Source: an uncultured Pelagibacteraceae bacterium (GTDB lineage Bacteria > Pseudomonadota > Alphaproteobacteria > Pelagibacterales > Pelagibacteraceae). From it: a DNA stretch of 47,482 nt. Within the stretch, counting starts at the first letter, position 1; each line of letters begins with the position of its first letter. Under the pieces are notes generated by a model. That model searched no databases and was not told the origin of the DNA. It saw only the letters and a list, made by a program, of their open reading frames with translations. The DNA is taken from positions 1-47,482 of the forward strand of contig CACGTU010000007.1 of assembly GCA_902576045.1 (NCBI GenBank). The letters are read 5' to 3'. Below, in pieces: positions 1,994 to 17,135 of the stretch. The position numbers were made by a program, and so were the translations under genes.

Positions 1994-2090
1994 TCAAGGT
2001 TTAAGGGATTATGGCGGAAGATAATCGGCGTAAACTGTGGACTTTAATAAAGGAAGCTGGCGATTATTTACGGGATTAGAGGTTCACATT
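1994..2090 (+). repeat. Left copy of imperfect direct repeat bracketing the phosphonate region
   Basis: The segment matches 16984-17080 in the same orientation. Over 2011-2090 versus 17001-17080, 67 of 80 bases are identical, and a shared TCAAGGTTT sits 17 bases before the ATG in both. Its core is about 41% GC (29 of 70 bases), visibly richer than its surroundings. Similarity continues weakly downstream (a CACATTA, then CCACATTAAAC here against CTACATTAAAC there). It contains a 22-codon ORF described separately. It is not a tRNA, terminator or known REP element that I can recognise. Confidence 0.75.
2011..2079 (+). CDS. 22-aa micro-ORF inside left repeat copy
   Basis: It runs ATG to TAG with a highly charged, probably helical product containing EDNRRKLW, then EAGDYLRD at the C-terminus. 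An AAGGG sequence lies just upstream. The copy at 17001 has the same length and stop, with changes that look protein-conserving: CTG/CTC (Leu), ATA/ATT (Ile) and TTA/TTG (Leu) are silent, and Leu/Ile and Lys/Gln are conservative. That pattern favours a translated ancestor. It may be a genuine small peptide or the N-terminal stub of a longer lost gene. No function is assigned. Confidence 0.35.
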   Translation: MAEDNRRKLWTLIKEAGDYLRD

Positions 2091-2236
2091 AATCCACATT
2101 AAACGGCATTATCCCACACGAACAAAATCATCTTTTGATAGACCAAAAAAAATAAACCTTTATTAACAAATTTTTCATTACAAATACCGATAATGATAGC
2201 AGGTATAATTAAATATTCTTATACAACCGGAATATT

Positions 2237-3373
2237 TTAACTTACTTGGATTCCGTTTGACCAAACGTTTTTCACAACAGGTAAATTTTGATAAACTTTA
2301 AACCTTACTAAATCTGCTCTTTTATTGTTATCAATTAAACCCCTATCATTTAAATTTGTAGCTATAGATGGAGCGTGACTAGCTGCTGCAAATGCTTTTG
2401 GAAGATTATCAATTTCTAAACCCCATTTGACAACAGATATAATTAATGATGATGGAATATAATCTGAGCTTAAGATATCTAAACAATCATTTTCTAAGAG
2501 TTCTTTTGCAGATATATTGCCAGAGTGTGAACCTCCTCTAAGTAAATTAGGAGATCCCATCATAACTTTAATATTGTAATCTTTAGAAGTTTTGGCTGCT
2601 TCTAATGTTGTTGGAAATTCAGCCAATTTTACTCCATATTTATATGAATTATGAACATCATTTTCTGTGGTATCGTCGTGACTAGCCAAAATACAATCAT
2701 ATGATGATTTAAATTCTAAAATTTTATCTATGTGTTTCTTGCTATTTTTTTTTGAAAGATTTTTTAAGTGATCAAAATGAATTTCCATTTCATTTTCTGT
2801 CATACCGTATTTAATTGAAAGATATTCTTTGTACTTATCTATAACTCTAAATTGCCTCTGACCTGGTGTATGATCCATTATACTAATCAGTTTTACATCG
2901 TGAGTTTCATTGTATTCGTCTAATTCATCAATCAAATTCTCCGAACAAGTTTCAGCTCTTAAATGTATTTTGTGATCAATCTTGAGAATATTATCTTTTT
3001 TAAAACTTGAAATTATATCCGAACAGTTTTTTGCATATTTTTTATATTTTCCTGTTTTTTCAATAGAACCAACTCTTAATGCATCAAAAACTGTAGTTAT
3101 TCCAACAGATGCTAATTCTCTATCATGAGATAAAATTGCATTTTCTACTGGAAATGAAACTTTAGGTCTTGGTGTCATGTGTCTTTCAAGATTGTCAGTA
3201 TGTAATTCAACCAATCCTGGCGAAATATAATCTTTTTCGCAGTCTATAGAACTTTTGTTATTACTTAATCCACTACTTATATCGACAATCTTGTTATCTT
3301 TAATCCTGATATGACCATGAACGATTTCATCTTTTTTAATTATCATGGCATTGTTTAAAATATATTCATGCAT
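2237..3373 (-). CDS. phnM: Alpha-D-ribose 1-methylphosphonate 5-triphosphate diphosphatase (PhnM)
   Basis: The 378-aa amidohydrolase-superfamily product has the PhnM hallmark SPGLVELHTDNLERH near residue 50 (metal ligands), then MDHTPGQ, ASHDDTT and MGSPNLLRGGSHSGN, and ends with the usual ADLVRF beta-sandwich strand. PhnM removes diphosphate from the ribosyl-phosphonate triphosphate made by PhnGHIL, giving the substrate of the C-P lyase PhnJ. I place the start at the ATG at 3373; a GTG one codon upstream is also possible. It is separated from the other phn genes by a reverse-oriented DUF1045 gene, so it probably has its own promoter in the 3374-3448 gap. Confidence 0.95.
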   Translation of the reverse strand: MHEYILNNAMIIKKDEIVHGHIRIKDNKIVDISSGLSNNKSSIDCEKDYISPGLVELHTDNLERHMTPRPKVSFPVENAILSHDRELASVGITTVFDALRVGSIEKTGKYKKYAKNCSDIISSFKKDNILKIDHKIHLRAETCSENLIDELDEYNETHDVKLISIMDHTPGQRQFRVIDKYKEYLSIKYGMTENEMEIHFDHLKNLSKKNSKKHIDKILEFKSSYDCILASHDDTTENDVHNSYKYGVKLAEFPTTLEAAKTSKDYNIKVMMGSPNLLRGGSHSGNISAKELLENDCLDILSSDYIPSSLIISVVKWGLEIDNLPKAFAAASHAPSIATNLNDRGLIDNNKRADLVRFKVYQNLPVVKNVWSNGIQVS

Positions 3374-3395
3374 CACTTTTTAATACACATGAATT

Positions 3396-3413
3396 GTTAC
3401 AAATATTTTAAAT
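3396..3413 (-). promoter_or_regulatory. Candidate Pho half-sites before phnM
   Basis: On the minus strand ATTTAAA and TTGTAAC are separated by 4 bases, and the proximal half ends 22 bases before the phnM ATG. TTGTAAC differs from the central pstS half-site CTGTAAC at one base. The gap also serves the divergent DUF1045 gene, so the site could act on either or neither. Weak evidence. Confidence 0.27.
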
Positions 3414-3448
3414 TAGAGAAAATTTATATAAGTATTATAAGTTGAATT

Positions 3449-4162
3449 ATGAAAAAATATTCTAGATACGCTATTTATTATGCACCTCCAAAAGAGAGTA
3501 GTCTAGAAGAATTTGGCAGATATTGGTTCGGTTGGGATCCACTTAATGCAAAGTTAATAAATAACAAACATAGAATTAATTATCTAAACAGATTTGGAAT
3601 TAAAAACTTAATAAACATAGATAAAAATGTTTTAATTGCAAAGAAATATGGGTTTCACGGCACACTTATTCCTCCTTTTAAACTAAACAAAAATTATAGT
3701 ACCAATACATTATTTAAAAAAACTGAGGAAATAGCAAAAAAATTCAAAAAATTTAAATTTTATAAATTTAAATTAAAAAAAATGAATAATTTTTATGCTT
3801 TTGTTCAAAATAAAAAAAATAATAACATTAATAAGTTATCAAATAGACTAGTTAGAGAATTATTTAAATTTAGGTCACCTCTTACAAAAAAAGAAATTGA
3901 TAGAAGAAATCCCTCTAAACTAAGTAAATTACAATTAAATATTTTATATAAATGGGGATACCCCTATTTAATGTCAGAATTTAATTTCCATATGACCCTT
4001 GCATCAGAGGTCACAGGAAACAAATTGTACCTTGAGTTAAAAAAAATTGAAAGAAACAAAGAAATCATTTTAAATGAAATAAATAATTTTGATAAAATAT
4101 ATATATTTGGTGAAAACCAAAAAGGAATGTTTGAGAATTTAGAAAATTTTTCACTTAGCTAA
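3449..4162 (+). CDS. DUF1045 phosphonate-metabolism protein, 2H phosphodiesterase family
   Basis: This is the 237-aa protein often found in C-P lyase clusters (DUF1045). It begins with RYAIYYAPP, has WFGWDP near residue 26, and shows the two His-x-Thr motifs of the 2H phosphoesterase superfamily, HGTL at H70 and HMTL at H181. A plausible role is opening the 5-phosphoribosyl 1,2-cyclic phosphate released by PhnJ, the job of PhnP elsewhere; no phnP is visible here. It runs opposite to the flanking phn genes: divergent from phnM with a 75-base gap, and overlapping the 3' end of phnN by 12 bases. The role is inferred; the family call is firm. Confidence 0.85.
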   Translation: MKKYSRYAIYYAPPKESSLEEFGRYWFGWDPLNAKLINNKHRINYLNRFGIKNLINIDKNVLIAKKYGFHGTLIPPFKLNKNYSTNTLFKKTEEIAKKFKKFKFYKFKLKKMNNFYAFVQNKKNNNINKLSNRLVRELFKFRSPLTKKEIDRRNPSKLSKLQLNILYKWGYPYLMSEFNFHMTLASEVTGNKLYLELKKIERNKEIILNEINNFDKIYIFGENQKGMFENLENFSLS

Positions 4163-4687
4163 AATTATTTTTTTCAATTTATTTGCACCTATAGCTATTG
4201 ATTTATTATTATTTATAGTAATTATATTTTTCGGTAGTAAATTAATTTTTCTTTTTATCCTTTTATTAATTGATTTTTTGTCTTCTCTAGCTCGATTTAC
4301 AAGTCTCTTTTTAATAATTGTTGATGGGGCAAAAATATTAATTATTTTAACGTTATTAACTTTTTTTTTTACTTTAAAAAGTACTTTTCTTGATCCATTA
4401 AAAATTACTGTTTTACCTTCCTCTATTTTTTTTATTTCCTTAAATGGAATACCGTATGAAAAACCATGAGCTTTCCAGTAAACAAAGAAATGTTTTTTTA
4501 AAATCTTATCTTCAAAATTTTTAATTGATATGCTGTAATGATCTTCATTTTTAATATCTTTTTTCCTAGTAATGTACCTTTTTACCAAAATGGAATTAGG
4601 AATTTTTTTAATTACTTTTTTTAATAAAGTATCTTTTCCTGATCCTGATGGTCCAACGACTACGATAAGCTGACCGTTATTTTGCAT
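4151..4687 (-). CDS. phnN: Ribose 1,5-bisphosphate phosphokinase (PhnN)
   Basis: The 178-aa product is a P-loop kinase of the guanylate-kinase type with GPSGSGKDT at residues 12-20 and VKRYITRK near residue 36. PhnN phosphorylates ribose 1,5-bisphosphate to PRPP, returning the ribose carrier of the C-P lyase route to central metabolism. It overlaps the 3' end of phnL by 11 bases on the same strand, and its own 3' end overlaps the oppositely oriented DUF1045 gene. Length is close to the roughly 185 aa usual for PhnN. Confidence 0.93.
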   Translation of the reverse strand: MQNNGQLIVVVGPSGSGKDTLLKKVIKKIPNSILVKRYITRKKDIKNEDHYSISIKNFEDKILKKHFFVYWKAHGFSYGIPFKEIKKIEEGKTVIFNGSRKVLFKVKKKVNNVKIINIFAPSTIIKKRLVNRAREDKKSINKRIKRKINLLPKNIITINNNKSIAIGANKLKKIILAK

Positions 4688-5354
4688 CTGATATTTTTGT
4701 AATATCTATTTCCCTAGCATTTAAATATTTACGTGAATATTCATCATGAAAAATACCAATTATTGAAGATCCACTATCTTTTTTTTCATTAATCAAATTC
4801 AAAACAATATCTTTGTTAACACTATCTAAACTAGCAGTTGGTTCATCTAGTAATAAACATGGATAATTTCTAATCAGTCCCCTAGCAACATTAACTCTTT
4901 GTTGTTCTCCACCTGAAAAAGTTAGTGGCGATAAATTCCATAAGTTTTTATCTATATTAAGTTTTAGTAAAATTTTTTCAGCTTTTTCACGAACTTCATC
5001 TTGATCTGAATTTATTTCTAATAAGGGCTCCATAACAATTTCAATTGTAGGAACACGAGGTATCACTCTTAGAAATTGACTAACATATCCTATTATATTT
5101 TTTCTAAGTTCAATAATATTTCTCGGATATGTATGATCTATGTTGTGATTATTAATTTTAATTTGTCCTGATTGAAAAACATAGTTTCCGTAAATCATTT
5201 TTAAAATACTAGACTTTCCAACACCTGATGGTCCTGTTAACGCTACAATTTCTCCAGGATTAATTTTCAAATTCAAATTATTAAAAACTAATATGTTTGT
5301 TTTGCCCTGATTATGAAGTGTAAATTTTTTTGTAATTTTATTTAGTTCAATCAT
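4677..5354 (-). CDS. phnL: C-P lyase accessory ABC-type ATPase PhnL
   Basis: The 225-aa ABC ATPase has Walker A GPSGVGKSS near residue 41, signature FSGGEQQRVNVAR near residue 146 and Walker B CLLLDEPTASLDS. PhnL is required with PhnG, H and I for coupling phosphonate to the ribose of ATP; it is a soluble ATPase of the complex and not a transporter subunit. It lies 2 bases downstream of phnK and overlaps phnN, consistent with one transcript. Length matches the family. Confidence 0.93.
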   Translation of the reverse strand: MIELNKITKKFTLHNQGKTNILVFNNLNLKINPGEIVALTGPSGVGKSSILKMIYGNYVFQSGQIKINNHNIDHTYPRNIIELRKNIIGYVSQFLRVIPRVPTIEIVMEPLLEINSDQDEVREKAEKILLKLNIDKNLWNLSPLTFSGGEQQRVNVARGLIRNYPCLLLDEPTASLDSVNKDIVLNLINEKKDSGSSIIGIFHDEYSRKYLNAREIDITKISDAK

Positions 5355-5356
5355 AT

Positions 5357-6124
5357 TTAAACCTGTAATACTGAACTAACTAATAACTGAGTATAAGAAT
5401 GTTGCGGATCATCTAATACCTGATCACAAAGTCCAGACTCAACAGCCTCCCCATTTTTCATAACAATAATTTTATCAGCTAACAATCTAATCACTGCTAA
5501 ATCGTGAGAAACGATTACAACTGATAAATTTAATTCTCTAACTAATTTTCTTAACAAATCTAAAATTTTTGCTTGAACAGAAACATCAAGACCTCCTGTT
5601 GGTTCGTCCATGAAAATTATTTTAGGACTCGTAACTAAATTTTTTGCTATTTGTAATCTTTGCAACATTCCACCAGAAAATGTTCTTGGAAAATCATCTA
5701 CTCTACTTTTATCGATTTCTACTTTATCTAACCATTTAAAAATAGTTTGCCTAATATTTCCATAATTTCTTTGTCCAATCGACATTAATCTTTCACTAAT
5801 ATTTCCACCAGCACTTACATCTAATCTTAAACCGTCTCTAGGATTTTGGTGAACAAAAGCTAATTCAGTTCTTATCAATAACCTTTTCAATGACTCAGAT
5901 ATTTCTAGAAAATCAATCGTTTCATTACCTGTTTCAATTAAGATTTTTCCACTATCAGGAATAAGATTGCCTGATATGGAATTTATAAAAGTTGTTTTTC
6001 CTGAGCCAGATTCTCCTACTACACCAACGACTTCCCCAGGATATAATGTCAAATTCATATTTTTGCATCCCACTTGATTACCGTAATATTTGTTTAAATT
6101 ATGAACTGACAAAATTGGTTGCAT
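5357..6124 (-). CDS. phnK: C-P lyase complex ABC-type ATPase PhnK
   Basis: The 255-aa product has Walker A GESGSGKTT near residue 36, signature FSGGMLQRLQIAK and Walker B IIFMDEPTGGLDVS, close to oligopeptide-transporter ATPases as PhnK is. In E. coli PhnK docks on the PhnGHIJ core through PhnJ. It abuts phnJ directly (phnJ stop at 6125, phnK start at 6124). Its coding order J-K-L is the canonical one. Confidence 0.94.
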   Translation of the reverse strand: MQPILSVHNLNKYYGNQVGCKNMNLTLYPGEVVGVVGESGSGKTTFINSISGNLIPDSGKILIETGNETIDFLEISESLKRLLIRTELAFVHQNPRDGLRLDVSAGGNISERLMSIGQRNYGNIRQTIFKWLDKVEIDKSRVDDFPRTFSGGMLQRLQIAKNLVTSPKIIFMDEPTGGLDVSVQAKILDLLRKLVRELNLSVVIVSHDLAVIRLLADKIIVMKNGEAVESGLCDQVLDDPQHSYTQLLVSSVLQV

Positions 6125-7006
6125 TTAATTATTTTCCATTCTTTGATTACAATAATTTGTATCTGAACATATAAATGATCTATTACCGTCATCATCAGTA
6201 ATTATTTCATCTAAAAAACTCTCATTTGATCCACAAATAGAACATTTATGAGGTGCCTTTGAGGGATCAAATGGATAATCCTCAAAATCAAGACTCGTTA
6301 CTTCAGTATATGGTGGTATTGCATAAATTCTTTGCTCTCTTCCTGCTCCAAATAATTGAATAGCAGGGTTATTGTTCATTTTTGGGTTATCAAATTTTGG
6401 AATAGGTGATGGGTCCATTATATATCTTTCATTTGTCTTTACTGGATAAGCATATGCTGTTTCTATATGACCATTTTTGGTAATATCTTCATATAACTTT
6501 ACATGCATAATTCCATATTCTGATAGTGCATGCATTTTTTTAGTTTCTTGATATCTTGGTTCTAAAAACGCAAGAGGTTCTGGTATTGGAACTTGATAAA
6601 CAAGTATTTGTTTTTCTTTTAACTTTTCTTCTGGAATTCTGTGTCTTGTCTGAATTATCGATGCTTGGCTTGTTTTTTCTGTGGTCTCAATATTAGCAGT
6701 TTTTTTAAAGAAATTTCTAATTGAAACTGCGTTTGTAGTATCATCTGCTCCTTGATCAATAACTTTTATCACATCGTCAGTTGTTAAACATGACGATGTT
6801 ACTTGAACCCCTCCTGTTCCCCATCCATATGGCATAGGCATTTCTCTAGATGAAAATGGAACTTGATAACCTGGTATGCAAAGAGCTTTAATCAAAGCTC
6901 TTCTTATCATTCTTTTTGTATTTTCGTCTAAATAAGCAAAATTATATATTTCATCTTGAGCTGCAACATCAGTTTTTTTATTTTTAAATTTAAGTACGTT
7001 GTTCAT
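6125..7006 (-). CDS. phnJ: C-P lyase catalytic subunit, radical SAM enzyme PhnJ
   Basis: The 293-aa protein shows the unusual C-terminal iron-sulfur motif of PhnJ: C255, C258 and C280 in CX2CX21C spacing, followed by C286 after five residues. This equals the E. coli arrangement of three cluster ligands plus the catalytic cysteine. GYQVPFSSREMPMPYGWGTGGVQ near residue 47 is also characteristic (quoted in part: VPFSSREMP, YGWGTGG). It cleaves the C-P bond of ribosyl-5-phosphate phosphonate, releasing the hydrocarbon (methane from methylphosphonate). The start overlaps the phnI 3' end by 17 bases. All key residues are intact. Confidence 0.97.
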   Translation of the reverse strand: MNNVLKFKNKKTDVAAQDEIYNFAYLDENTKRMIRRALIKALCIPGYQVPFSSREMPMPYGWGTGGVQVTSSCLTTDDVIKVIDQGADDTTNAVSIRNFFKKTANIETTEKTSQASIIQTRHRIPEEKLKEKQILVYQVPIPEPLAFLEPRYQETKKMHALSEYGIMHVKLYEDITKNGHIETAYAYPVKTNERYIMDPSPIPKFDNPKMNNNPAIQLFGAGREQRIYAIPPYTEVTSLDFEDYPFDPSKAPHKCSICGSNESFLDEIITDDDGNRSFICSDTNYCNQRMENN

Positions 7007-8069
7007 TTTTTTTATACTCTTCTCTAATTTTTCTTACTAAATCCAATTCCGCTTGAAAATCTACATAATGAGGTAATTTGATATGTTCTAAAAAACCTGT
7101 GGCTTGAATATTATCACAATGAGATATAACAAATTCTTCATCTTGAGCAGCAACACCCAAATACTCCTCACCAAATTCTTTCCATCTCATTGATCTATCA
7201 ACTAAAGCCATAGAAATAGCTTTTCTTTCTAATTGACCAAAAACTAAACCATATCCACGGGTAAATTGAGCAGGTATTTTTTTACTACCTTTAAATTGGT
7301 TTACTGACTCACACTCAGTAAACATGACATCAGCAATATTTATTTCTATTCCTAATTCTGGAATTTCAAATTGAACCTCAACGTAACCAGTTCTTAATTC
7401 ACCAACAAATGCATGATTTCTAGCATACCCTCTCTGTGTTGAATAAGCTAAACCAAGAAGAAAACCTTCATCTCCTCTTGAAAGAGATTGCAATCGTTCA
7501 GATCTTGTTAAAGGAAAATTAATTGGGTTTCTTGTAATATCTTTAGATGTCTTGCCACTAGGTATTTCTTTCTGAATTAATCCTTCTTTATTTAAAAAGC
7601 TTAAAACATGTGGGATTTCTTTATCATCATATTTTTCAATCTTAGCTTTTTCATACTCTCCATCAGCAAGAAGCTTGAAATCAAGTAAACGGTGTGTGTA
7701 GTCAAATGTTGGGCCTAACTTTTGTTTACCTGGGATATCTTTAAATGTTGCAGATATTCTTCTTAGACATAACATTTTGCCAGTTTCGATAGGTTTGCTT
7801 GAACCAATTCTAGGTAAAGTAGTTCTATAGGCTCTCATTAGAAAAATTGCTTCAATCAAGTCACCTCTAGACTGTTTGATTGCAAGAGCAGACAAATCTT
7901 TGTCATATAAAGATCCTTCTGACATAACTCTATCAACACTTAAAGTTAGTTGTTCACTAATTTGTTTAATATTTAGTTCTGCTATATTTACATCCCCTCT
8001 TCTTATTTCGGATAACCAGGAATGTGCGTTATTTATTGCCTTTTCCCCACCTTTTACTGATACATACAT
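6990..8069 (-). CDS. phnI: C-P lyase core subunit PhnI (nucleosidase/transferase)
   Basis: The 359-aa protein starts MYVSVKGGEKAI, the conserved PhnI N-terminus, and includes PITFP-like PINFPLTRSERLQSLSRGDEGFLL (key part RSERLQSLSRGD) and the GYGLVFGQ and ALVDRSM segments. PhnI with PhnG, H and L replaces the adenine of ATP by phosphonate. Length is close to the E. coli protein (354 aa). It begins one base after phnH ends and runs into phnJ with an overlap, so this is the central part of the minus-strand operon. Confidence 0.96.
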   Translation of the reverse strand: MYVSVKGGEKAINNAHSWLSEIRRGDVNIAELNIKQISEQLTLSVDRVMSEGSLYDKDLSALAIKQSRGDLIEAIFLMRAYRTTLPRIGSSKPIETGKMLCLRRISATFKDIPGKQKLGPTFDYTHRLLDFKLLADGEYEKAKIEKYDDKEIPHVLSFLNKEGLIQKEIPSGKTSKDITRNPINFPLTRSERLQSLSRGDEGFLLGLAYSTQRGYARNHAFVGELRTGYVEVQFEIPELGIEINIADVMFTECESVNQFKGSKKIPAQFTRGYGLVFGQLERKAISMALVDRSMRWKEFGEEYLGVAAQDEEFVISHCDNIQATGFLEHIKLPHYVDFQAELDLVRKIREEYKKNEQRT

Positions 8070-8070
8070 T

Positions 8071-8625
8071 TTATAGCTCTCCTATTTTCAATGATCTTGG
8101 TATTGAATAAAATTTATCATTATCAACAAAATAAAAATCAAGTCCTAATGGAAATTGCTGGTTATTTTTTTTTATAACCTCTCTATCAGGTAAAAATATA
8201 CTTTTAGAACTTTTAATACCAGGGCCAGAAATTATGGCATTTGGTTTTTCAAATTGGGACTGGCAAATAATTGTACACGATTGATCAGGATTTTGCTCGT
8301 CCCCCTTTTTAAATTCATCTAATGGTAAAAGATCATCCCAAGTACCAATTGCAAAATTTGCATTTTTTTTATCTGTAATGTTTGCACCTGTATTAAATTT
8401 AATCCAATCAATAGTTTCTTGATTGTTAACTTCACCACCTAAAAAAATATTTGAATAACTATCACAAAAAGTTTTTATTATTGAACAACTAGCTGAAAAC
8501 ATATTCGAAGGGGGATCTATATTTTTTAATGTCTCAATTGAACCGGGATATGAGGTTGCAAACAAAATACTTCTAAAATAATCAGCACTTACTTGAGAAT
8601 TATTTTTTTTAGAAACAACTTCCAT
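8071..8625 (-). CDS. phnH: C-P lyase core subunit PhnH
   Basis: The 184-aa product is PhnH, a PLP-transferase-fold subunit of the C-P lyase core that has lost PLP binding. Supporting segments are YFRSILFATSYPG near residue 16, ATSYPGSIETL, NFAIGTW and ISGPGIKSS, followed by the GLDFYFVDNDKFYSIPRS C-terminal core (key part DFYFVDN, SIPRS). It is slightly shorter than the E. coli protein (194 aa). It starts 3 bases after phnG ends. Confidence 0.93.
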   Translation of the reverse strand: MEVVSKKNNSQVSADYFRSILFATSYPGSIETLKNIDPPSNMFSASCSIIKTFCDSYSNIFLGGEVNNQETIDWIKFNTGANITDKKNANFAIGTWDDLLPLDEFKKGDEQNPDQSCTIICQSQFEKPNAIISGPGIKSSKSIFLPDREVIKKNNQQFPLGLDFYFVDNDKFYSIPRSLKIGEL

Positions 8626-8628
8626 AGA

Positions 8629-9072
8629 TTATTTATCCTCACCTCTTACCAAGGTAAAAAAATCAACTTTAGTAGCTTCTGTTTTAGATAATATTTCATT
8701 TCTTTTGTTATTTTTATATTTAATTAATTTATCAATTATATTTCTTTTAATTATTTCTTTTTTTTCAGTTTGCATCAATGCATCACACAAAGCTGCAATT
8801 TTGGATTTATATTTATTTCTACCTTGAACATAACCATGTCCTTGAATTTTTTTATCTAAACTTAATGAACATCTCGTTATAGTTACTTCTCCAACATTAA
8901 AATTATCACCTGTGACGCCTGCTTTTCCTTGAACCATAACACTGCCAATCTCAGGTTCTCTTAACCAATTATATTCTATTTTCATATTTAAATTGTCCCA
9001 AAGCGATATTAGATAATTTTCATCTGCTGTTGCTAAATAACTTAACCATTGTTTTCTTGATTTATTTTTCAT
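8629..9072 (-). CDS. phnG: C-P lyase core subunit PhnG
   Basis: With the ATG at 9072 the protein is 147 aa, like E. coli PhnG (150 aa). A TTG four codons upstream (9084) could extend it but adds nothing conserved. KQWLSYLA at the N-terminus, VQGKAGVTGDNFNVGEVTITR in the middle (key part GDNFNVGEVT), ALCDALMQ and the C-terminal VDFFTLVRGED are diagnostic. It is first in the minus-strand phnGHIJKLN series and is divergent from phnF. No clear Shine-Dalgarno sequence precedes it. Confidence 0.94.
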   Translation of the reverse strand: MKNKSRKQWLSYLATADENYLISLWDNLNMKIEYNWLREPEIGSVMVQGKAGVTGDNFNVGEVTITRCSLSLDKKIQGHGYVQGRNKYKSKIAALCDALMQTEKKEIIKRNIIDKLIKYKNNKRNEILSKTEATKVDFFTLVRGEDK

Positions 9073-9084
9073 AATACTATACAA

Positions 9085-9093
9085 CTAGACAAG
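9085..9093. promoter_or_regulatory. Possible PhnF (GntR/HutC) operator half-site
   Basis: The phnG-phnF intergenic region holds CTAGACAAG on the plus strand (CTTGTCTAG on the minus), like one arm of HutC-subfamily operators, which often take a TTGTCTA/TAGACAA form. The other arm is poorly kept. It lies 12 bases upstream of the phnG ATG. Only a suggestion. Confidence 0.25.
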
Positions 9094-9138
9094 TACTAAA
9101 ATTAAAAATAATTTCAATATATTATTTATTAAAATTTT

Positions 9139-9849: not shown

Positions 9850-9956
9850 ATTTTCTACCTTAGGTTTAAATTTCATATAACTTAAACAAAATTTAAAAGA
9901 TTCATTAATAATATTTTAACATTTATTAAAGATTAGAGGGTTAACAAATTCCTCAA

Positions 9957-10781
9957 ATGATTATTGAAAAAGTTAACAAATTTTTCGGTGATAATCATGC
10001 CGTTAAAAACGTTTCTTTTGAGGTTAACAAACCTCAAATGATAGGAATCATAGGTAGATCTGGGGCTGGTAAATCAACATTACTAAGAATTATAAATCGA
10101 CTTACCGACGCAACAGATGGGTCTATTGAAATTGAAGGTCAAAATATTCTAGATTTAAAAAGTAAGGAAAAGAGATCATGGCAAAGAAACTGTGCAATGA
10201 TTTTTCAACAATTTAATTTAGTTCCACGATTAGATGTTCTAACAAATGTAATATTAGGCAGATTAAATTATCAGGGCTCATTTAGAGCATCTTTAAAAAT
10301 GTTTTCTCGAGATGAAAGAGCTGATGCTCTGATTTTACTCAATAACTTAGGTATGGCTAACACTGCCCTTCAAAGAGCTGAAACGTTATCTGGAGGTCAA
10401 CAGCAACGTGTAGCTATATGTAGAGCTTTGATGCAAAATCCTAAAATGATTTTAGCAGATGAACCAATTGCATCTTTAGATCCAATGAATGCAAGAATGG
10501 TAATGGAATCATTAAGAAAAATTCATGACGAAAAAAATTTAACAGTTATTTCAAATCTTCATACACTTGATACAGCAAAAACTTATTGTGATCGAATTAT
10601 TGGAATGAAAGATGGTGAAATAGTCTTTGATGATTTGCCTGAAAAATTATCACATAAACTTGCAAGAGAAATTTATGGTGCAGAGGCTGATGAAGCTTTT
10701 GAGCCACAAGTAACATCTACAGAGCTTAAAACAAAAAATAAATTAAATGGAGATGTTGAGAAAGAATTTGCAACTGCATGA
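9957..10781 (+). CDS. phnC: Phosphonate ABC transporter ATPase PhnC
   Basis: The 274-aa ATPase has Walker [10 protein letters not shown] near residue 32, a Q-loop in [11 protein letters not shown], signature LSGGQQQR and Walker [14 protein letters not shown]. It energises PhnE-type permeases for phosphonate uptake. The start is the ATG at 9957; there is no close Shine-Dalgarno, GAGGG lying about 17 bases upstream. It is followed after 60 bases by phnD with a strong AAGGAG. A TTTTAAC (9914-9920) resembling pstS half-sites lies upstream but lacks a convincing partner. Confidence 0.95.
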
Positions 10782-10841
10782 GATCAATAACTCATCGTTA
10801 CAAATAAGTCGTTAGACTAAAATTATAAAAAGGAGATAATT

Positions 10842-11792
10842 ATGTTTAATAAACTAACAAGAGTTATTGCACTTTTGGCTATGGTGTTTTTTTCAACTCA
10901 AGCTAATGCAGTAACTTACACAGGTCCAAAAATGGACTTAAGTAAATACCAACCAGAATTTAGAGTTGGTTTTTTAGGTGACGAAGCAGCTCAAGATATT
11001 ATAGCTAGAAATGAATGTTTCATGCCGTATATCGAAGCCGCTTATGGTGTACCAGCTAAATTTTTTACTTTTAAAGACTACGCTGGAACAATGGAGTCGA
11101 TGCTAGGTGGTAATCTAGATTACACTTGGTTCGGTTCTTCAGGATATGCGGGTATGTATTTAAAAGATCCAACTGCAGTAGTACCAGTACTAACAAGAAT
11201 GCAGCCAACTGGTGATATGGGTTACTACTCTGTTGCAGTAGCAACTAAATCATCTGGAATTAAATCAATGGAAGACCTTAAAGGTAAATCCTTTGGTTGG
11301 GCTGACCCTAACTCTACATCAGGTTTTTTAATTCCGTCAATTGAATTAAAGGCTATGGGTATGGATCCAGATACATATTTTTCAAAAACACAGTTTTCTG
11401 GAGGACATGAAAACAATGTATTAGCGGTAATGAATGGTGATGTTGATGCTGGTGTAACATGGGTATCTGGTGTTGGTAGCTGGGAAGAAGGATATTCGTC
11501 AGGGAATTTAAGAAAAATGGTTGATAAAGGGATTTTAAATATGGACGACATTGTTCAAATTTGGTCTTCAAAATTAATTCCTAATGGTCCAATTGTGATG
11601 CCTACTTTTTTACCTGTTAGAGCACACCAAGTAATGATTGGTTTAAAGCAATGGATACACGAGAACGATCCAAAATGTAGCGAAAACGTTGCAAACGGGA
11701 TTGTAAAAAAATGGGTTCCGGTGGATCATTCTTTTTACGAGTCAGTTGTAGCTGCAAGAAAAGCTAAAATTGAAGCGCAAAAAAATAATTAA
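10842..11792 (+). CDS. phnD: Phosphonate-binding periplasmic protein PhnD
   Basis: The 316-aa protein has a signal peptide over about residues 1-23 ending TQANA. The mature part is a PhnD/SsuA-like two-lobe binding protein: FRVGFLGDEAAQD, GGNLDYTWFGSSGYAG (quoted: DYTWFGSSG), SFGWADPNSTSG and GHENNVLAVMNGDVDAGVTW (quoted: NGDVDAGVTW). It captures phosphonate in the periplasm for PhnCE. A strong AAGGAG lies 9 bases before the ATG, and a perfect hairpin follows the gene, fitting high expression of the binding protein relative to the permeases. Confidence 0.95.
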   Translation: MFNKLTRVIALLAMVFFSTQANAVTYTGPKMDLSKYQPEFRVGFLGDEAAQDIIARNECFMPYIEAAYGVPAKFFTFKDYAGTMESMLGGNLDYTWFGSSGYAGMYLKDPTAVVPVLTRMQPTGDMGYYSVAVATKSSGIKSMEDLKGKSFGWADPNSTSGFLIPSIELKAMGMDPDTYFSKTQFSGGHENNVLAVMNGDVDAGVTWVSGVGSWEEGYSSGNLRKMVDKGILNMDDIVQIWSSKLIPNGPIVMPTFLPVRAHQVMIGLKQWIHENDPKCSENVANGIVKKWVPVDHSFYESVVAARKAKIEAQKNN

Positions 11793-11809
11793 TTAAACCC
11801 CCTATAATT

Positions 11810-11849
11810 AGAGGCAAAGACTGTAAATCTTTGCCTCTGATTTATTTTT
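11810..11849 (+). terminator. Attenuating terminator between phnD and phnE
   Basis: A perfect 11-bp stem (AGAGGCAAAGA at 11810-11820, TCTTTGCCTCT at 11828-11838) encloses a 7-base loop and is followed by the T-rich run GATTTATTTTT. It sits inside the transporter operon 18 bases past the phnD stop, so it probably stops part of the transcripts (or protects the phnD 3' end) and lowers permease expression. Confidence 0.85.
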
Positions 11850-11856
11850 AAAAATT

Positions 11857-12711
11857 ATGGCAAAAGCCTTACCTGCCAACCTAGAACAAATTGAAGTTAA
11901 TTTAAAAAAATTAACAAACCAGAGAACTAGGTCCTCGCTACTTGGAATTGCAATTCTAATATTAATTTTTTTTGGTGGTACCTTGGTATCGTTAGAAGCA
12001 AATGCAGGGTCTTTTGGAAGAGGTATAGCTAATTTTTTTAACTACCCTAGAGATTTATTTGTAGACACTTTTGAGATGGGATGGAAATATTGGCCAAGAG
12101 TTATTAAGTATATTCCTGAATTAATTATTACTTTAAATATTGCTTTATTTTCAACTTCTATAGGTTTTATTTTAGCAATTATATTTGCAATTTTTTCAAG
12201 TAGGAACCTAATTAGAAACAAAAGAGTTATTCAATTTACAAAATTTTTAATGGATGTGACAAGATCATTTCCAACATTAATAATAGCAATGGTGTTTTTA
12301 TATCTAATGGGTAAATCATCTTTACCAGCTGTAATTGCTATAACAATACATACTGCTGGAGCACTTGGTAAATTATTTACAGAGGCTATAGAAAATTGTG
12401 ATGGAAAACCTATTGAAGGTTTAAGTTCTGTTGGTGCAACTTGGACACAGAAGATAAGATTTTCAGTTCTTCCCCAGGTACTACCTTTGTTTTTAAGTTA
12501 TGGAATATTGAGGTTAGAAATTAATGTTAGAGAATCTACAATATTAGGTTTTGTTGGTGCAGGTGGAATTGGAGAAATGTTAGCGGCTCTAATTCAGTGG
12601 AATTATGGAGCTGATGTTTTAGCGTGTATGTTCTTACTGGTTGGTACGATAATTGCATTAGATTATTTGTCTGCATATTGGAGACATAAATTAATTGGAG
12701 CAAATCAATGA
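11857..12711 (+). CDS. phnE: Phosphonate ABC transporter permease PhnE
   Basis: The 284-aa inner-membrane permease has an N-terminal segment at about 28-48 and a BPD-type permease core with further helices. The EAA-like loop is EAIENCDGKPIEGLSSVGAT (core EGLSSVGA), followed by GILRLEINVRESTILGFVGAGGIG (core STILGFVGAGGIG). It forms the channel with the next gene and is driven by PhnC. Its stop overlaps the phnE2 ATG by four bases (ATGA). Confidence 0.94.
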   Translation: MAKALPANLEQIEVNLKKLTNQRTRSSLLGIAILILIFFGGTLVSLEANAGSFGRGIANFFNYPRDLFVDTFEMGWKYWPRVIKYIPELIITLNIALFSTSIGFILAIIFAIFSSRNLIRNKRVIQFTKFLMDVTRSFPTLIIAMVFLYLMGKSSLPAVIAITIHTAGALGKLFTEAIENCDGKPIEGLSSVGATWTQKIRFSVLPQVLPLFLSYGILRLEINVRESTILGFVGAGGIGEMLAALIQWNYGADVLACMFLLVGTIIALDYLSAYWRHKLIGANQ

Positions 12712-14108
12712 GTTCTAGTTTAGCTATTCAAAGAGAAAATATTCGTAAATTATTTCCTGACACATTTAAACAAGCCAGAAAGAGTAGATTAAGAGGCCAA
12801 ATAATTTTTTTTCTCGTCTTAGTATATTTAATAGTAGGTTTTTTTACTTTAGATGTTGTTGATATCCCAAAAAAATGGAAACCACAAAATGCTGCTATGT
12901 TTGTCTTAGACACATATGCACACAAAGATCATGTAACAATGAAATGGGAAAATCATGAGGATATTAAAATAGCTTTTGAAGGAAATTATAGAAGTGTTTA
13001 TGGAAGAGATAATCTTGATAAATCAATTCCAGATTGGTTTTACAAAAATTCTGATAATGTTGGCAATGTAGTTGAGTTTAATAATAAAGGTAAGGCAATA
13101 TTATACAAAGATAAAGTCGAGATTGTAAATTTTCCAAAATATGAGAGAGATTTTACCATAAAATTAAATTCTAATGGTAAACCTTACCTTGTAGGTTCAG
13201 AGGATTTGGTCATAGAAGATTTAAAAGGTTTTAGAATCACAGAAAATAGAGTTGAATTTAGACCCACTTTGTATGAGAGAATTCAAGTATATCCAAAAAA
13301 AGTTGAAATTCATCGTTACAGTATCGGATGGAAATATTTTTGGTTTGATTTCTCAAGTCCTTTAGAACCATATAGCTTTTTCGAAGCATTAGGTTTGACT
13401 TTTTCTAAAGAAAGAGTTGTTCCTGAAATGTCTAATTTAAAACTTTTCTTAACAGAGATTAAGGATAATGAAGCATTTATGCACGGTAGAGTTTGGTGGG
13501 CAATGCTCGAAACAATAGTTATGGCTGTACTTGGGACAATGTTTGCTACAGTAATGGCTCTGCCCTTGTCATTCCTTGCTGCATACAACGTTACACCTAT
13601 TAAAGCTCTAAGATTTACGTTAAGAAGATTATTTGATACTTTAAGAGGAATAGACTTTTTAATTTGGAGTTTAATATTTTTAAGAGCTTTTGGTCCAGGA
13701 CCCTTCACTGGTATTTTTGCGATTGGTTTTACTGATACAGGTACTTTAGGTAAATTATATTCTGAAGCAATTGAAAATACTGAGAAGAAACAACAAGAAG
13801 GAGTTCAATCTACAGGGGCTAGCAAATTTCTACAACATAGATTTGGTATAATTCCTCAAATACTTCCAATTTTTGTATCTCAATCCTTATACTATTTAGA
13901 GTCAAATACTAGAGGAGCCGTAATAATAGGTGCAATGGGCGCAGGAGGAATTGGTTTACAATTTTTAGGTGCACTAGGTACTGGAAATGATTTTGAAAAT
14001 GTCGCCTACATGGCAATATTAGTTTTGGCTGTAGTAATATTTATGGATAGATTATCTGCTTGGCTTAGAAGAATATTAATTGGATCAGATCAATTAATTG
14101 TAAGGTAA
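12708..14108 (+). CDS. phnE: Second phosphonate ABC permease PhnE2 with large N-terminal insertion
   Basis: At 466 aa this is far longer than a typical PhnE (about 260-290 aa). One membrane helix at about 31-50 is followed by roughly 180 residues of hydrophilic, strand-rich sequence (from VDIPKKW to about WKYFWFDFSSP) that should face the periplasm. The permease core then starts near residue 255 and contains the loop GVQSTGAS and the segment GAVIIGAMGAGGIG. The core is closely related to the preceding PhnE, so the two likely form a heterodimer. The role of the inserted domain is unknown; contact with PhnD is a possibility. Confidence 0.9.
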   Translation: MSSSLAIQRENIRKLFPDTFKQARKSRLRGQIIFFLVLVYLIVGFFTLDVVDIPKKWKPQNAAMFVLDTYAHKDHVTMKWENHEDIKIAFEGNYRSVYGRDNLDKSIPDWFYKNSDNVGNVVEFNNKGKAILYKDKVEIVNFPKYERDFTIKLNSNGKPYLVGSEDLVIEDLKGFRITENRVEFRPTLYERIQVYPKKVEIHRYSIGWKYFWFDFSSPLEPYSFFEALGLTFSKERVVPEMSNLKLFLTEIKDNEAFMHGRVWWAMLETIVMAVLGTMFATVMALPLSFLAAYNVTPIKALRFTLRRLFDTLRGIDFLIWSLIFLRAFGPGPFTGIFAIGFTDTGTLGKLYSEAIENTEKKQQEGVQSTGASKFLQHRFGIIPQILPIFVSQSLYYLESNTRGAVIIGAMGAGGIGLQFLGALGTGNDFENVAYMAILVLAVVIFMDRLSAWLRRILIGSDQLIVR

Positions 14109-14175
14109 ATAGAAAAAATACCTTTATCAAAAATTTTTCTAGAAATTTTAATTTAAGAATTTAAAAAGATAAAAA

Positions 14176-14604
14176 TCAATCTTTCCAGAATTTCCACCAA
14201 GGTTTTTCTTCCTTTGTTATCTCATTATTGTCAACAACAACTTTAGTTATAGATGGATCCTCTCCATCTACTAATCCTGCTCTAGCAGTTGTTTTAGCGT
14301 CTTCTAATTTTAGTTTTGCCTCAAAAACTCTGTTTTCATTACACAATTTCATGCCCTCTTTCATTAATGCTTCTGCCTCAGATGCTTTTTCGGGACTAGA
14401 TCTTGAAATATCATTTTTAACAGTGGCTCTTAACATAAGTACTCCAGGGTCTTCACAATTCCCTATTTCATTTTTAAATGTATCCTCAGTATTTTGTGAA
14501 TAACTACTGCCGGCTTGTTGCTCTGTTATTTTAGCATGATTGTCAGCTTGAGTAATAGAAATTGTGGATAAAGTTAATATAAATGAGATTAGGATTTTAT
14601 TCAT
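14176..14604 (-). CDS. Small secreted protein of unknown function
   Basis: The 142-aa product has a clear signal peptide (MNKILISFILTLSTISITQA) and a hydrophilic mature part rich in Glu, Lys and Asn with two cysteines (in IGNCEDPG and KLCNENR). A helical middle (SEAEALMKEGMKLC, AKLKLEDAKTTA) looks like a short TPR-type or coiled helix pair, and the tail is aromatic and basic, KPWWKFWKD. It lies opposite to the flanking phnE2 and MFS genes. Candidate Pho half-sites lie 22 bases upstream, so it may be a phosphate-starvation-induced periplasmic protein. I do not recognise the family. Confidence 0.72.
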   Translation of the reverse strand: MNKILISFILTLSTISITQADNHAKITEQQAGSSYSQNTEDTFKNEIGNCEDPGVLMLRATVKNDISRSSPEKASEAEALMKEGMKLCNENRVFEAKLKLEDAKTTARAGLVDGEDPSITKVVVDNNEITKEEKPWWKFWKD

Positions 14605-14626
14605 AATAATCTATTAACTTACTTTT

Positions 14627-14644
14627 GTTAAAAAAATGTTAAAG
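14627..14644 (-). promoter_or_regulatory. Candidate Pho half-sites before the 142-aa secreted protein
   Basis: On the minus strand CTTTAAC and TTTTAAC are separated by 4 bases (11-bp period) and end 22 bases before the start codon. CTTTAAC also occurs in the arsenic-operon box and TTTTAAC in the pstS box. Match to the enteric CTGTCAT consensus is weak. Confidence 0.32.
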
Positions 14645-14658
14645 AAATAAAAAAATTT

Positions 14659-15831
14659 GTGAAATATTTGTCTGCATTTTTAATAGGTATATCAGTTACC
14701 TTTTGTTACAGCAGTTGTATGTACCTGTTCTCAGCGTTGTTGCTAACTTGGGAAAACGAACTAGGTATTTCAAGAAACAACTTAACTTTTATTTATTCCC
14801 TAGGCTTAGTTGTGCATAGTTTACTTTTACCTTTTCTAGGTAAGATTGTAGATAGAAATCTAAGTTTTCCAATGATGTGGACCAGTCCTATACTGTTAGG
14901 ACTAAGTGTAATTTATCTTTCATCAGTAGATACATATGGTGGATTTTTACTTGCTTGGATACTTGTCAGTGCAACCTCGGGTGGCTGTCTTTATACGATG
15001 CTTTTTAGTGTCATTACTATTAATTTAAAATCAAAGGCCAAAACATCTATTGCAATAATTACTTTGTTTGCTGGATTTGCAAGCACATACACATTTCCTA
15101 CTGCTACTTATTTAACAGAACAATATGACTGGAGGTTTACTGTATTTATTTTTGGAATATTAAATATATTGATTAGTTCACCAGCTAATTATTTTGGTTT
15201 CAAAAATATAATTATAAAAGAATTTAAAAAAATTGAAAAGAAAACAGATCAAAATTCAAAGCTTAAAATAATACTTAAAGATTATAGATTTTGGTTATTT
15301 AGTTTTTCATTGTTTGTTATTGGATTTAATATTGGTGCTATTACAACTCATGTAATTCCAATGTTGCAGGAAAAAGGGATGAGTCTATCCCAAGCTGTAT
15401 TGACAGCATCTCTGTTTGGACCAGGACAAGTAATAGGTAGAATTTTAGTTATGATATATGGAGGTGATAAGTCAAATTTAAAATTATTTGTAATTTGTTT
15501 TTACTCGATGGTAATTGGAATGATATTTTTATACTTTATAAATATTAATCATTACTTAGCATTTTTATTTGTTTTATTTAATAGTTCAGCATATGGCAGT
15601 ATGGCTATTTTAAAACCTTTGGTTCAAAATGATACTTTTGGCCAAAAAAACTTTGGCAATATTCATGGTATTTTAGCTTTACAATATATGATTGGTAGTA
15701 TTGCTGGTCCATGGATAGGTTCCTTGATATGGAATGTAGGGGGGTATGATTTGTTAATATTAGTATTTTTTGTTTTAGCAATATTTGGTAACTCGACAGC
15801 AATTTTTCTAAACAAAAAAAAATTTATTTAA
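14659..15831 (+). CDS. MFS transporter
   Basis: The 390-aa protein has about 12 hydrophobic segments, a central hydrophilic loop near residue 195 (KKIEKKTDQNSKLK) and the MFS pattern with GLVVHSLLLPFLGKIVDRN (core LGKIVDR) after TM2. It starts at GTG and resembles the monocarboxylate/oxalate-formate branch of MFS. Its last 8 bases overlap the convergent PhnZ-like gene. The substrate is not readable from sequence. Its place inside the repeat-bounded phosphonate region makes an organophosphorus compound or its carbon product possible, as inference only. Confidence 0.82.
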   Translation: MKYLSAFLIGISVTFCYSSCMYLFSALLLTWENELGISRNNLTFIYSLGLVVHSLLLPFLGKIVDRNLSFPMMWTSPILLGLSVIYLSSVDTYGGFLLAWILVSATSGGCLYTMLFSVITINLKSKAKTSIAIITLFAGFASTYTFPTATYLTEQYDWRFTVFIFGILNILISSPANYFGFKNIIIKEFKKIEKKTDQNSKLKIILKDYRFWLFSFSLFVIGFNIGAITTHVIPMLQEKGMSLSQAVLTASLFGPGQVIGRILVMIYGGDKSNLKLFVICFYSMVIGMIFLYFININHYLAFLFVLFNSSAYGSMAILKPLVQNDTFGQKNFGNIHGILALQYMIGSIAGPWIGSLIWNVGGYDLLILVFFVLAIFGNSTAIFLNKKKFI

Positions 15832-16375
15832 AACTGCTTTCCACATGTTTATAAAAAAAATTTATATTTGGAATTTCTAAATTTTCAACTTTAGCAAGAT
15901 CATCATATTTCCTTAGTCTAACTGCATCTTGCATAAAAGGTTGTTTAATAAATTCGTTTGCCTCTTCTTCAGAAAAACTACCACCTTGAACATCCAAACT
16001 TCTTTTTGAGGCAATAGATAGAGCCTCATAATATCCTTTCTCATAATAAACTAAATATCTTTTAGCTGGCACATGCCCTTTAATTAGTCTTGTAACATCT
16101 TCTGGAAAAAATTTAGAAAGAAAAAAGGATCCTGAATTCTCATGCTTTTTATCTACTCCTTTTTTGATGGCTTCTTTATCATTATTAATTAAGTGACCAA
16201 TATCATGGAATAGAGCTGCAGTTATAAAAAAATTGTTTTCATTATTTTTTTTTGCCAATAATGCACATTGAATTGCATGTTCTAGTTGTGAAACTTTTTC
16301 ATTTCCATATTGTTTGTCTGATCCAATTTCTTCTATAATTTTAAATAAATTGGTTATATTTGATTTAATATCCAC
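15824..16375 (-). CDS. phnZ: PhnZ-like HD-domain di-iron oxygenase
   Basis: The 183-aa protein (GTG start) belongs to the phosphonate-associated HD family. It retains the ligand pattern of PhnZ, each position shifted by one to three residues from the published enzyme: Y23 and E26 in QYGNEKVSQLEH, H33, H57-D58 and H61 in FHDIGHL, H78, H101 and K105 in GHVPAK, SLDVQGG at 126-132, and D158 in RKYDDLAK. PhnZ oxidatively cleaves the C-P bond of 1-hydroxy phosphonates made by the 2OG-dependent PhnY; no PhnY is in this window. It is convergent with the MFS gene and divergent from the ArsC-like gene. Substrate (2-AEP, methylphosphonate or other) unknown. Confidence 0.82.
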   Translation of the reverse strand: MDIKSNITNLFKIIEEIGSDKQYGNEKVSQLEHAIQCALLAKKNNENNFFITAALFHDIGHLINNDKEAIKKGVDKKHENSGSFFLSKFFPEDVTRLIKGHVPAKRYLVYYEKGYYEALSIASKRSLDVQGGSFSEEEANEFIKQPFMQDAVRLRKYDDLAKVENLEIPNINFFYKHVESSFK

Positions 16376-16397
16376 AATGTTACTTTAAATTAAGAAT

Positions 16398-16415
16398 GTT
16401 TCAGTTTTGTTACAA
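16398..16415 (-). promoter_or_regulatory. Candidate Pho half-sites before the PhnZ-like gene
   Basis: On the minus strand TTGTAAC and CTGAAAC are spaced by 4 bases and end 22 bases before the GTG start. Each differs from the pstS half-site CTGTAAC at a single base, making this the best pair after pstS and the arsenic operon. Confidence 0.42.
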
Positions 16416-16472
16416 TTTAGATTTAGCATTCATTAAGTATAGAAAAATAATATATAGTAATAAAAGTTAAAA

Positions 16473-16922
16473 ATGAAAAAACTTTTATTTGTTTGTACCG
16501 GCAATTCTCATAGAAGTATATTGGCTGAAAGTGTAGTTAACAAATATCATAAAGATAAATTTATTGGCTACAGTGCAGGTAGCAAACCATCTGGAATAAT
16601 TAATAAATATGTCATTAAATATCTTAATGAAAATAATTTTGATACAAAAAATCTATCTTCTAAAAACTTTAATAAATTTTTAGATGAAAAAACAATATTT
16701 GACCAGGTATTTACCGTATGCAACAATGCCAGTGATGAAGTTTGTCCAGTCTGGCCATCTCCTGAAAAAATAGTTCATTGGGACATTGAGGATCCTGTTC
16801 ATATCATTAATGAGTTAGAAAATAGTGATAAACCAAATAAAGAAGAGCTGATTTCAACAGAAATACATAAAACTTATTCCAATTTAGAAACCAGAATAAA
16901 TGATTGGATTAAAAATTATTAG
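16473..16922 (+). CDS. arsC: ArsC-like arsenate reductase, low-molecular-weight phosphatase fold
   Basis: The 149-aa protein has the P-loop CTGNSHRS with nucleophile C8, then VCNNASDEVCPVWP carrying the second redox cysteine pair and HWDIEDP with the general-acid Asp, as in thioredoxin- or mycothiol-type arsenate reductases. It is a paralogue of the gene at 30609-31040 (same motifs, CTGNSARS there). It stands alone here, next to the PhnZ-like gene and just inside the right repeat. It likely reduces arsenate that enters through phosphate transporters; a plain phosphotyrosine phosphatase is less likely given the extra cysteines. Confidence 0.85.
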   Translation: MKKLLFVCTGNSHRSILAESVVNKYHKDKFIGYSAGSKPSGIINKYVIKYLNENNFDTKNLSSKNFNKFLDEKTIFDQVFTVCNNASDEVCPVWPSPEKIVHWDIEDPVHIINELENSDKPNKEELISTEIHKTYSNLETRINDWIKNY

Positions 16923-16983
16923 CTTAAAGACTCATCAATTTTACTGTCAAACTAGAACCACAACTAGAACTTTTGGAGATGTT

Positions 16984-17080
16984 TCAAGGTTTTGTAGTAA
17001 ATGAATGAAGATAATCGGCGTAAACTCTGGAAAATTATTCAGGAAGCTGGCGATTATTTGCGGGATTAGAGGGACACATT
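16984..17080 (+). repeat. Right copy of imperfect direct repeat
   Basis: This partner of 1994-2090 has the same orientation and lies 14,990 bases downstream. It falls in the 346-base gap between the ArsC-like gene and phoR, which otherwise holds only a gene remnant (17136-17234). The conserved blocks are AAGATAATCGGCGTAAACT, GGAAGCTGGCGATTATTT and CGGGATTAGAGG. Short arms GATAATCG and CGATTATT could pair over a loop of roughly 33 bases, but the loop is not conserved as structure while the reading frame is. Confidence 0.75.
17001..17069 (+). CDS. 22-aa micro-ORF inside right repeat copy
   Basis: ATG to TAG, 22 residues, differing from the left copy at Ala/Asn, Thr/Lys, Leu/Ile and Lys/Gln, with EDNRRKLW and EAGDYLRD unchanged. 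Three further codon differences are silent. No good Shine-Dalgarno is visible (AAGG lies 12 bases upstream). Expression is unproven; it may equally be the conserved stub of a lost gene carried within the repeat. Confidence 0.35.
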   Translation: MNEDNRRKLWKIIQEAGDYLRD

Positions 17081-17135
17081 ATTCTACACTAACCTACATT
17101 AAACTAAAGTATTTATGCGGATACTAAAAAGTTAG

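Follow-up and report, generated by a model that had tools for sequence, protein, structure and literature searches.

Genomic islands and prophages that insert at dusA by means of DAI integrases represent the closest mechanism described so far for the arrangement reported here (PMC4482086). We analysed a 47,482-nucleotide (nt) stretch of DNA from an uncultured Pelagibacteraceae bacterium of the SAR11 group (contig CACGTU010000007.1 of assembly GCA_902576045.1, positions 1 to 47,482; hereafter the window), in which all the phosphonate-use (phn) genes lie between two direct repeats. These repeats are probably att-like sites of a 15-kb cargo cassette that carries no integrase of its own, a member of a family that uses the start of a gene for a 75-amino-acid (aa) protein and a recombinase acting in trans. 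As far as dusA-type islands are described in PMC4482086, they resemble the SAR11 elements in lying near the 5' end of a conserved gene, whose start is replaced by an element-borne copy, and in leaving imperfect direct repeats (attL and attR). The islands carry their own integrase and typically span 30-60 kb, whereas the SAR11 cassettes have a median length of about 2 kb and no recognised integrase. Unlike the islands, the cassettes can stack in tandem, and their target is an unnamed 75-aa gene. Two hallmarks of a dusA-type island, end repeats that copy the target gene and an unoccupied target in relatives, were both found here, with the caveat that the right end in the window is not joined to an intact gene. 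An element-encoded recombinase is present in the relatives L194, L203 and G175; none was recognised in the window cassette, which we therefore class as a non-autonomous relative and not as a dusA-type island.

The tycheposons of Prochlorococcus, as presented in PMC10872708 and PMC12416821, share with the SAR11 elements a cargo of nutrient genes, tyrosine recombinases and streamlined ocean bacteria as hosts, but they are bordered by tRNA genes, whereas the SAR11 border is the 5' end of a protein gene. In fGI-2 of the Methylophilaceae, recurring copies of a target-gene end likewise mark the cargo; the mark reported there is the last 20 bp of tRNA-Lys, and in SAR11 it is a protein-gene start with arm-like repeats (PMC10872708). 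A tRNA-based island of the tycheposon type was ruled out for the window, where a tRNA scan found none and the target is a protein gene; an Rfam scan of the window gave nothing at gathering score (no attC model was run). Integron gene cassettes are small, tandem pieces of cargo without a recombinase that are captured at one chromosomal site. The SAR11 cassettes resemble them in all three respects. Unlike integrons, they have sites made of a core and two sets of arms, as in lambda-type systems, and a relative with a full-size integrase exists.

The same kind of gene cluster as that in the window has been placed in a flexible genomic region, or island, of SAR11 that also holds phosphate genes; the main text of that paper describes no repeats and nowhere contains the words repeat, recombinase, transposon or mobile (PMC7318151). 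Transfer of a different operon, phnCDE-ubiE, with tyrosine recombinases and tRNAs nearby, is described in PMC12416821. No account of a cassette vehicle in SAR11 appeared among the literature matches listed, judged mostly from titles and the beginnings of abstracts. To our knowledge, the swapping of nutrient genes among streamlined SAR11 genomes is poorly explained.

The repeat pair

The elements at the ends of the cassette, in window positions, are the following.

1987-2111, same orientation as the right copy: left repeat copy, from the repeat search
2011-2079, plus strand: left att-like core, a 22-codon open reading frame (ORF) reading MAEDNRRKLWTLIKEAGDYLRD and then stop; truncated start of the 75-aa target gene
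2085-2119, plus strand: left P'-type arm, CACATTA-like repeats at 2085, 2095 and 2105 (and 2115), spacing 10
2152-16919: cargo block, phnM to arsC with 85 nt past the phnM stop codon; limits from BLAST against native loci
16950-16969, plus strand: right P-type arm, AACTAGAA at 16950 and 16962, spacing 12
16977-17101, same orientation as the left copy: right repeat copy, from the repeat search
17001-17069, plus strand: right att-like core, a 22-codon ORF reading MNEDNRRKLWKIIQEAGDYLRD and then stop
17075-17101, plus strand: right P'-type arm, CACATTA-like repeats at 17075, 17085 and 17095
17138-17234, plus strand: remnant of a 335-aa glycosyltransferase-like gene (named by eye; intact in genome G286), some 32 codons from its 3' end

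A preliminary description of this locus had reported repeats in the same orientation 14,990 nt apart. They are real and slightly longer than first thought, with 77% identity over 125 nt. The core match found by BLAST (2017-2111 against 17007-17101; 95 nt, 83%) has an E value of about 1e-22 in a search of the genome, and the best score between the left and right regions, 100 bits, is far above the maximum of 31.9 bits among 200 order-2 Markov shuffles. Each copy consists of approximately the first 20 codons of the 75-aa gene, with a stop two codons later, and then a tail of CACATTA-like repeats, one per 10 nt. Both 22-codon ORFs are open from ATG to TAG and differ from each other at four residues; the first 20 residues of the right one are the same as in the intact target protein of L140, the phn locus of strain AG-918-C15. 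This target-gene start was absent from the preliminary description. The repeats are thus not generic patches of homology: a truncated copy of a gene start, followed by arm-like repeats, is what insertion by an integrase leaves behind.

The phn block in other SAR11 strains

We compared 35 SAR11 phn loci from named records (L114-L148; the scan kept the best 80 of 142 relatives), some of which are the same assemblies as genomes of the 300-genome genus set used below (G numbers). L149, also from the Pelagibacteraceae, was excluded as a far-diverged phn cluster (76% PhnC identity, other gene order). In L140 the order is truncated copy, phnM to arsC, intact 75-aa gene. All 50-nt bins of 2037-2436 and of 16700-17049 are 100% identical between L140 and the window; identity is 60% and 44% in the adjoining outer bins, similarity being lost at the cores. 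Since this block stands at the primary site with the same ends, the window holds an integrase-less cassette with all the phn genes. Together with L139, L140 makes two loci in which the block lies directly upstream of the intact 75-aa gene. The arrangement of the window itself is complete in three loci (L114, L116 and L117, separate single-amplified-genome (SAG) assemblies that are 99.8-99.97% identical over 20 kb), and its right half is present in a fourth (L115). The block occupies a native site in 28 of the 35 loci, adjoining homologues of window ORFs 29960 and/or 31040 with no repeat; the remaining locus was too short to judge.

The preliminary description had proposed that the cassette is exchanged between strains through these repeats. 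The recurrence of the block with the same ends at a second site in AG-918-C15, and the genus-wide set of att-like sites described below, bear out part of this proposal. It does not hold generally, since in the 28 native loci the phn borders fall elsewhere and lack the repeats, an outcome that the description itself had named as speaking against it.

Compared with seven native loci, the cargo begins at 2152 in six and at 2147 in L142, and finishes at 16919 in all of them. Because the native loci match only this interval, the arms belong to the cassette and not to the native block. When L140 and native L122 are compared with the window between 7987 and 13486, L122 is the closer of the two in 10 of 11 bins, and such a mosaic interior indicates that homologous recombination also acted on the block. 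PhnJ was found in 10 of the 300 genomes at 95-100% identity, and the PhoR proteins of seven other phn genomes listed are 57-87% identical to that of the window (no match was listed for G295 and G307), which points to horizontal spread. The native phn site of other strains corresponds to 29960-31041 in the window, where it is free of phn genes and holds an arsC-like stretch (30712-31041) with 70% DNA identity to the arsC of the cassette.

The target gene and its occupancy in the genus

An intact 75-aa gene is present in the genome to which the window belongs (G000:C4:12348-12572), and its first 20 codons match the repeat ORFs. The protein was matched in 183 of the 300 genomes, with a best E value of 1e-29 or lower in all but five (G139, G155, G158, G168 and G304, which gave weak matches only), and 48 genomes had at least two matches. 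It has no Pfam, NCBIfam or PHROG match. An AlphaFold model consists of three helices (predicted local distance difference test, pLDDT, 86) and has no match in the PDB at E 0.001 or better; the best E value in a profile search was 0.36.

Truncated copies with the same tail are widespread in the genus. Twenty regions were fetched, 18 of them picked for a listed truncated copy and two (G012 and G098) containing the intact gene only. The intact gene is also contained in 15 of the 18, and there all 20 truncated copies lie upstream of it on the same strand, a figure that is no measure of prevalence because the regions were preselected. The stop is not universal among truncated copies: the one at 5996 in L062 continues to 57 aa. 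The 34 core-to-core intervals measure 749-15,009 nt (median 1,989), some share cargo, and the two largest are the phn cassettes. What lies between copy and gene varies (TetR regulators, a short-chain dehydrogenase, a TRAP transporter, an amidohydrolase and many unknowns), and downstream, near the intact gene, a 370-371-aa ORF occurs in 11 of the 11 regions whose genes were listed.

Two further loci are of note. At G000:C10:5449-5511 (L216) a P arm and core come after a 322-aa dihydrodipicolinate-synthase-like gene (named by eye); with neither P' arm nor target gene, this may be the end of a cassette that lies at a secondary site. L205:7228-9108 and L204:584-811 (IMGVR_UViG_3300025425_002733) contain another kind of integrative element, whose integrase has 557 aa. 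Its apparent position is within the 3' half of the 75-aa gene, with a duplicate of residues 40-75 at the other end of the element.

Arm repeats

The P arm, upstream of the core, comprises two AACTAGAA-like repeats 11-13 nt apart, and the P' arm, downstream of it, three or four CACATTA-like repeats. The motifs were set by eye from printed copies and an alignment before a further set of upstream regions was viewed; some genomes of these test regions already had a truncated copy among those printed. Three of the 40 regions had less than 6 kb upstream and were dropped, which left 37. At random positions of the fetched sequence the 99% quantile was 18 for P and 16 for P'. A P' score of at least 16 was reached by 37 of 40 truncated copies, which include L055 (identical to the right copy in the window) and near-duplicates, and by one of 64 intact genes. 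In the 37 further regions, P was at least 17 in 7/7 intact genes with a truncated copy upstream versus 7/30 without, at a cut-off picked after the scores were known; a Mann-Whitney rank test, which does not depend on the cut-off, gave p = 2.4e-4. Among the regions selected for truncated copies, all 18 intact genes with such a copy upstream scored at least 18. The unoccupied target genes of G012, G098 and G000:C4, with no truncated copy in the stretch fetched, had P scores of 14, 13 and 13. Inner truncated copies, which are expected to be both-arm junctions, had P of at least 17 in eight of nine cases. In the window, the left copy (P 12; P' 21 of 21) is attL-like, and the right copy (P 24 of 24; P' 17) has both arms, like a tandem junction or an attP.

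A candidate recombinase

The viral contig L194 (9,070 nt) carries the core and both arm types immediately before the gene for a 581-aa protein, and L203 (9,003 nt) has the same layout, with an integrase 61-62% identical. Judging from exact terminal repeats of 29 nt in L194 and 81 nt in L203, both are probably circles; repeats of this kind were seen for the autonomous relatives only. The L194 protein matches the phrog_1 integrase family (1e-22) and Pfam Phage_integrase (8.6e-6, just below the cut-off), and R396, K423, R520 and Y554, which we take to be its catalytic residues, are invariant across seven aligned integrases. Its structural model (mean pLDDT 73) has nine Foldseek matches in the PDB at E 0.001 or better, namely Xer-type recombinases, Tn1549 Int and a staphylococcal integrase; weaker matches follow, to lambda Int (0.004) and to arm-binding domains of P4-like integrases (0.01 or above). 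With this set of R, K, R and Y and the modelled recombinase fold, the protein is predicted to be a tyrosine recombinase. It has no match among phage records. In G175 an element lies directly upstream of the intact gene, at a contig end, and seven of its ORFs match L194 at 36-72%, two of them being pieces of the integrase. The stretches fetched for G136, G184, G218 and G174, which have distant integrases (27-33% identity), contain no core. Beside an integrase-bearing element in L210:418-4074 (G218:C16), six prepilin-like genes stand in near-tandem and have a common FTLIELLVVVAIIGILAAVGVVAYNGYT start.

The phoR site

In agreement with the preliminary description, the repeats enclose phnM to arsC, including the MFS and PhnZ-like genes, and leave olsB outside on the left and phoR-pst outside on the right. 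The gene remnant that it had noticed beside the right copy proved to be the end of a glycosyltransferase-like gene, of which G286 has an intact version. The window and G286, a genome with no PhnJ match, are 99.1% identical from position 17143 to the right; the rest of the gene has no other match in G000 (a genome 83% complete). Because the tail of the right copy runs into this remnant, a second cassette end is probably truncated at phoR. On the left, positions 3-1574 match G210 at 89%, and there olsA-olsB abut phoR.

A strain lacking phn genes and keeping a single repeat between olsB and phoR, which the preliminary description had named as a supporting outcome, was not encountered. Twenty phoR regions, all of genomes in which PhnJ had no match, were examined, and none has a repeat copy (six of these regions show less than 3 kb upstream, and the centre of the G128 region was a 38% match). 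An empty phoR site with one repeat was accordingly rejected.

The glycosyltransferase-like gene of G286 comes after a metallophosphoesterase-like (plcP-like) gene; we assume both names and a role in lipid renovation. Another transporter of the phnD/phnC/phnE type, 23-39% identical, lies approximately 3.8-6.2 kb upstream of phoR in L101 (G276).

Content of the cassette

The genes carried between the two repeats are listed below. Names other than those given by family match (phnN to phnG, phnC, phnE1 and phnE2) are our presumptive assignments from gene order.

2237-9084, minus strand: phnM, then phnN, L, K, J, I, H and G; phnM by family match
3449-4162, plus strand: DUF1045 gene, by family match
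9139-14108, plus strand: phnF, phnC, phnD, phnE1 and phnE2; phnF and phnD by family match
14176-14604, minus strand: 142-aa protein without a Pfam match
14659-15831, plus strand: MFS transporter, by family match
15824-16375, minus strand: PhnZ-like HD oxygenase (TIGR03276, 3.2e-60, slightly below the cut-off)
16473-16922, plus strand: ArsC-like protein of the low-molecular-weight phosphatase family, by family match

Discussion

Several observations weigh against an integrase-less cassette moved in trans. No integrase was recognised among the ORFs of at least 60 aa in the interval, examined by eye and in part searched against family libraries, as the preliminary description had also stated, and none was seen by eye in the cargo of 11 regions (eight cargo proteins, from three regions and L212, were searched). 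The L194-type integrase was matched in just five of the 300 genomes, and at the target gene solely as the broken copy of G175, so in other genomes it would have to be supplied in trans. Viral contigs, scanned once with an exact pattern and once with phnJ, yielded no excised phn circle. The right copy at phoR leads into a P' arm and not into the target gene, and this is therefore not a textbook attB insertion. Over the whole block, identity between L140 and the window is 96.0%, and L139, with the phn block at the primary site, has no left copy and a different P arm. The arms are also imperfect as markers: one truncated copy (L212 10541) lacks P', the 7/30 intact genes noted above have a P arm without a visible truncated copy, and, with free elements and the contig-cut L055 excluded, 13 of the 28 outermost truncated copies reach a P of at least 17, whereas no P arm is expected in a plain attL. 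These outermost P arms might be accounted for by one more cassette farther upstream that has decayed or was not seen, but they reduce our confidence in the reading.

The strongest rival is that RecA-type homologous recombination alone produced the arrangement, the truncated copies acting as homology patches of 60-95 nt and the cargo carrying no integrase. The core does offer good homology of this length, usable by RecA, which is a further point against our reading. The same rival would accommodate the lack of a recognised integrase in the cassettes examined, the mosaic phn interior with its affinity to native L122, the imperfect arm classes, and flanks that resemble different relatives, G210 on the left and G286 on the right. 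Yet it leaves unexplained both the arm repeats beside the cores and the integrase-bearing elements with the same core and arms, and we regard it as unlikely. Far less probable still is that the truncated copies encode a functional 22-aa small protein, duplicated for itself and flanking the phn genes incidentally. A frame that is open in both copies with four residue differences would suit such a protein; however, the homology of the copies runs past the stop into the arm-like repeats, the copies mark cargo boundaries, the stop is missing in at least one of them (57 aa in L062 5996), and the similarity of L140 stops at the cores. Chance or an assembly artefact, for which the start of the contig just 666 nt left of olsB might be cited, is practically negligible given 100 bits against at most 31.9 in the shuffles and the independent SAG assemblies L114, L116 and L117, with the right half again in L115.

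Returning to the cassette moved in trans, we propose that elements of this family insert at the start of the conserved 75-aa gene, within roughly its first 20 codons. Insertion would supply the gene with a new start and a P arm, the truncated start then lying with a P' arm at the opposite end of the element, and successive insertions would yield tandem cassettes. The tyrosine recombinase of the autonomous 9-kb relatives may recognise the core and the two sets of arm repeats, and would act in trans on cargo cassettes, which carry none. What the sequences show directly is the anatomy of the repeats and their origin in a gene, the arm repeats, the cargo between them, the same cassette ends at two places on the chromosome, and relatives that bear an integrase beside the same site. 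Catalysis, the function of the arms, crossover within the core and the direction of movement, like mobilisation in trans, we infer from the sequences. The phn cassette occupies the primary site in AG-918-C15 and a place beside phoR in the window lineage, its left repeat probably serving as an attL-like site and its right repeat as an attP-like or tandem-junction site. At phoR, a truncated second cassette end (the tail and the glycosyltransferase remnant) probably comes after it, and homologous recombination has additionally altered the interior of the phn block. Whether all this amounts to an integron-like system of SAR11 built from ordinary integrase parts, in which cassettes with a cargo of anything between a single gene and the complete C-P lyase pathway are captured, stacked and relocated at copies of one att core and 9-kb satellite-like elements supply the recombinase, is a more tentative proposal, to which we give about an even chance.

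SAR11 bacteria are among the most abundant in the sea, and the use of methylphosphonate releases methane. The present results suggest how this phosphonate pathway, methane release included, can hop between SAR11 strains as one block. They provide a concrete, sequence-defined candidate vehicle, with a landing site, its arms, a recombinase and a cargo for phosphonate use, and counts of junction sequences in metagenome reads may allow the gain, loss and relocation of the trait to be predicted.

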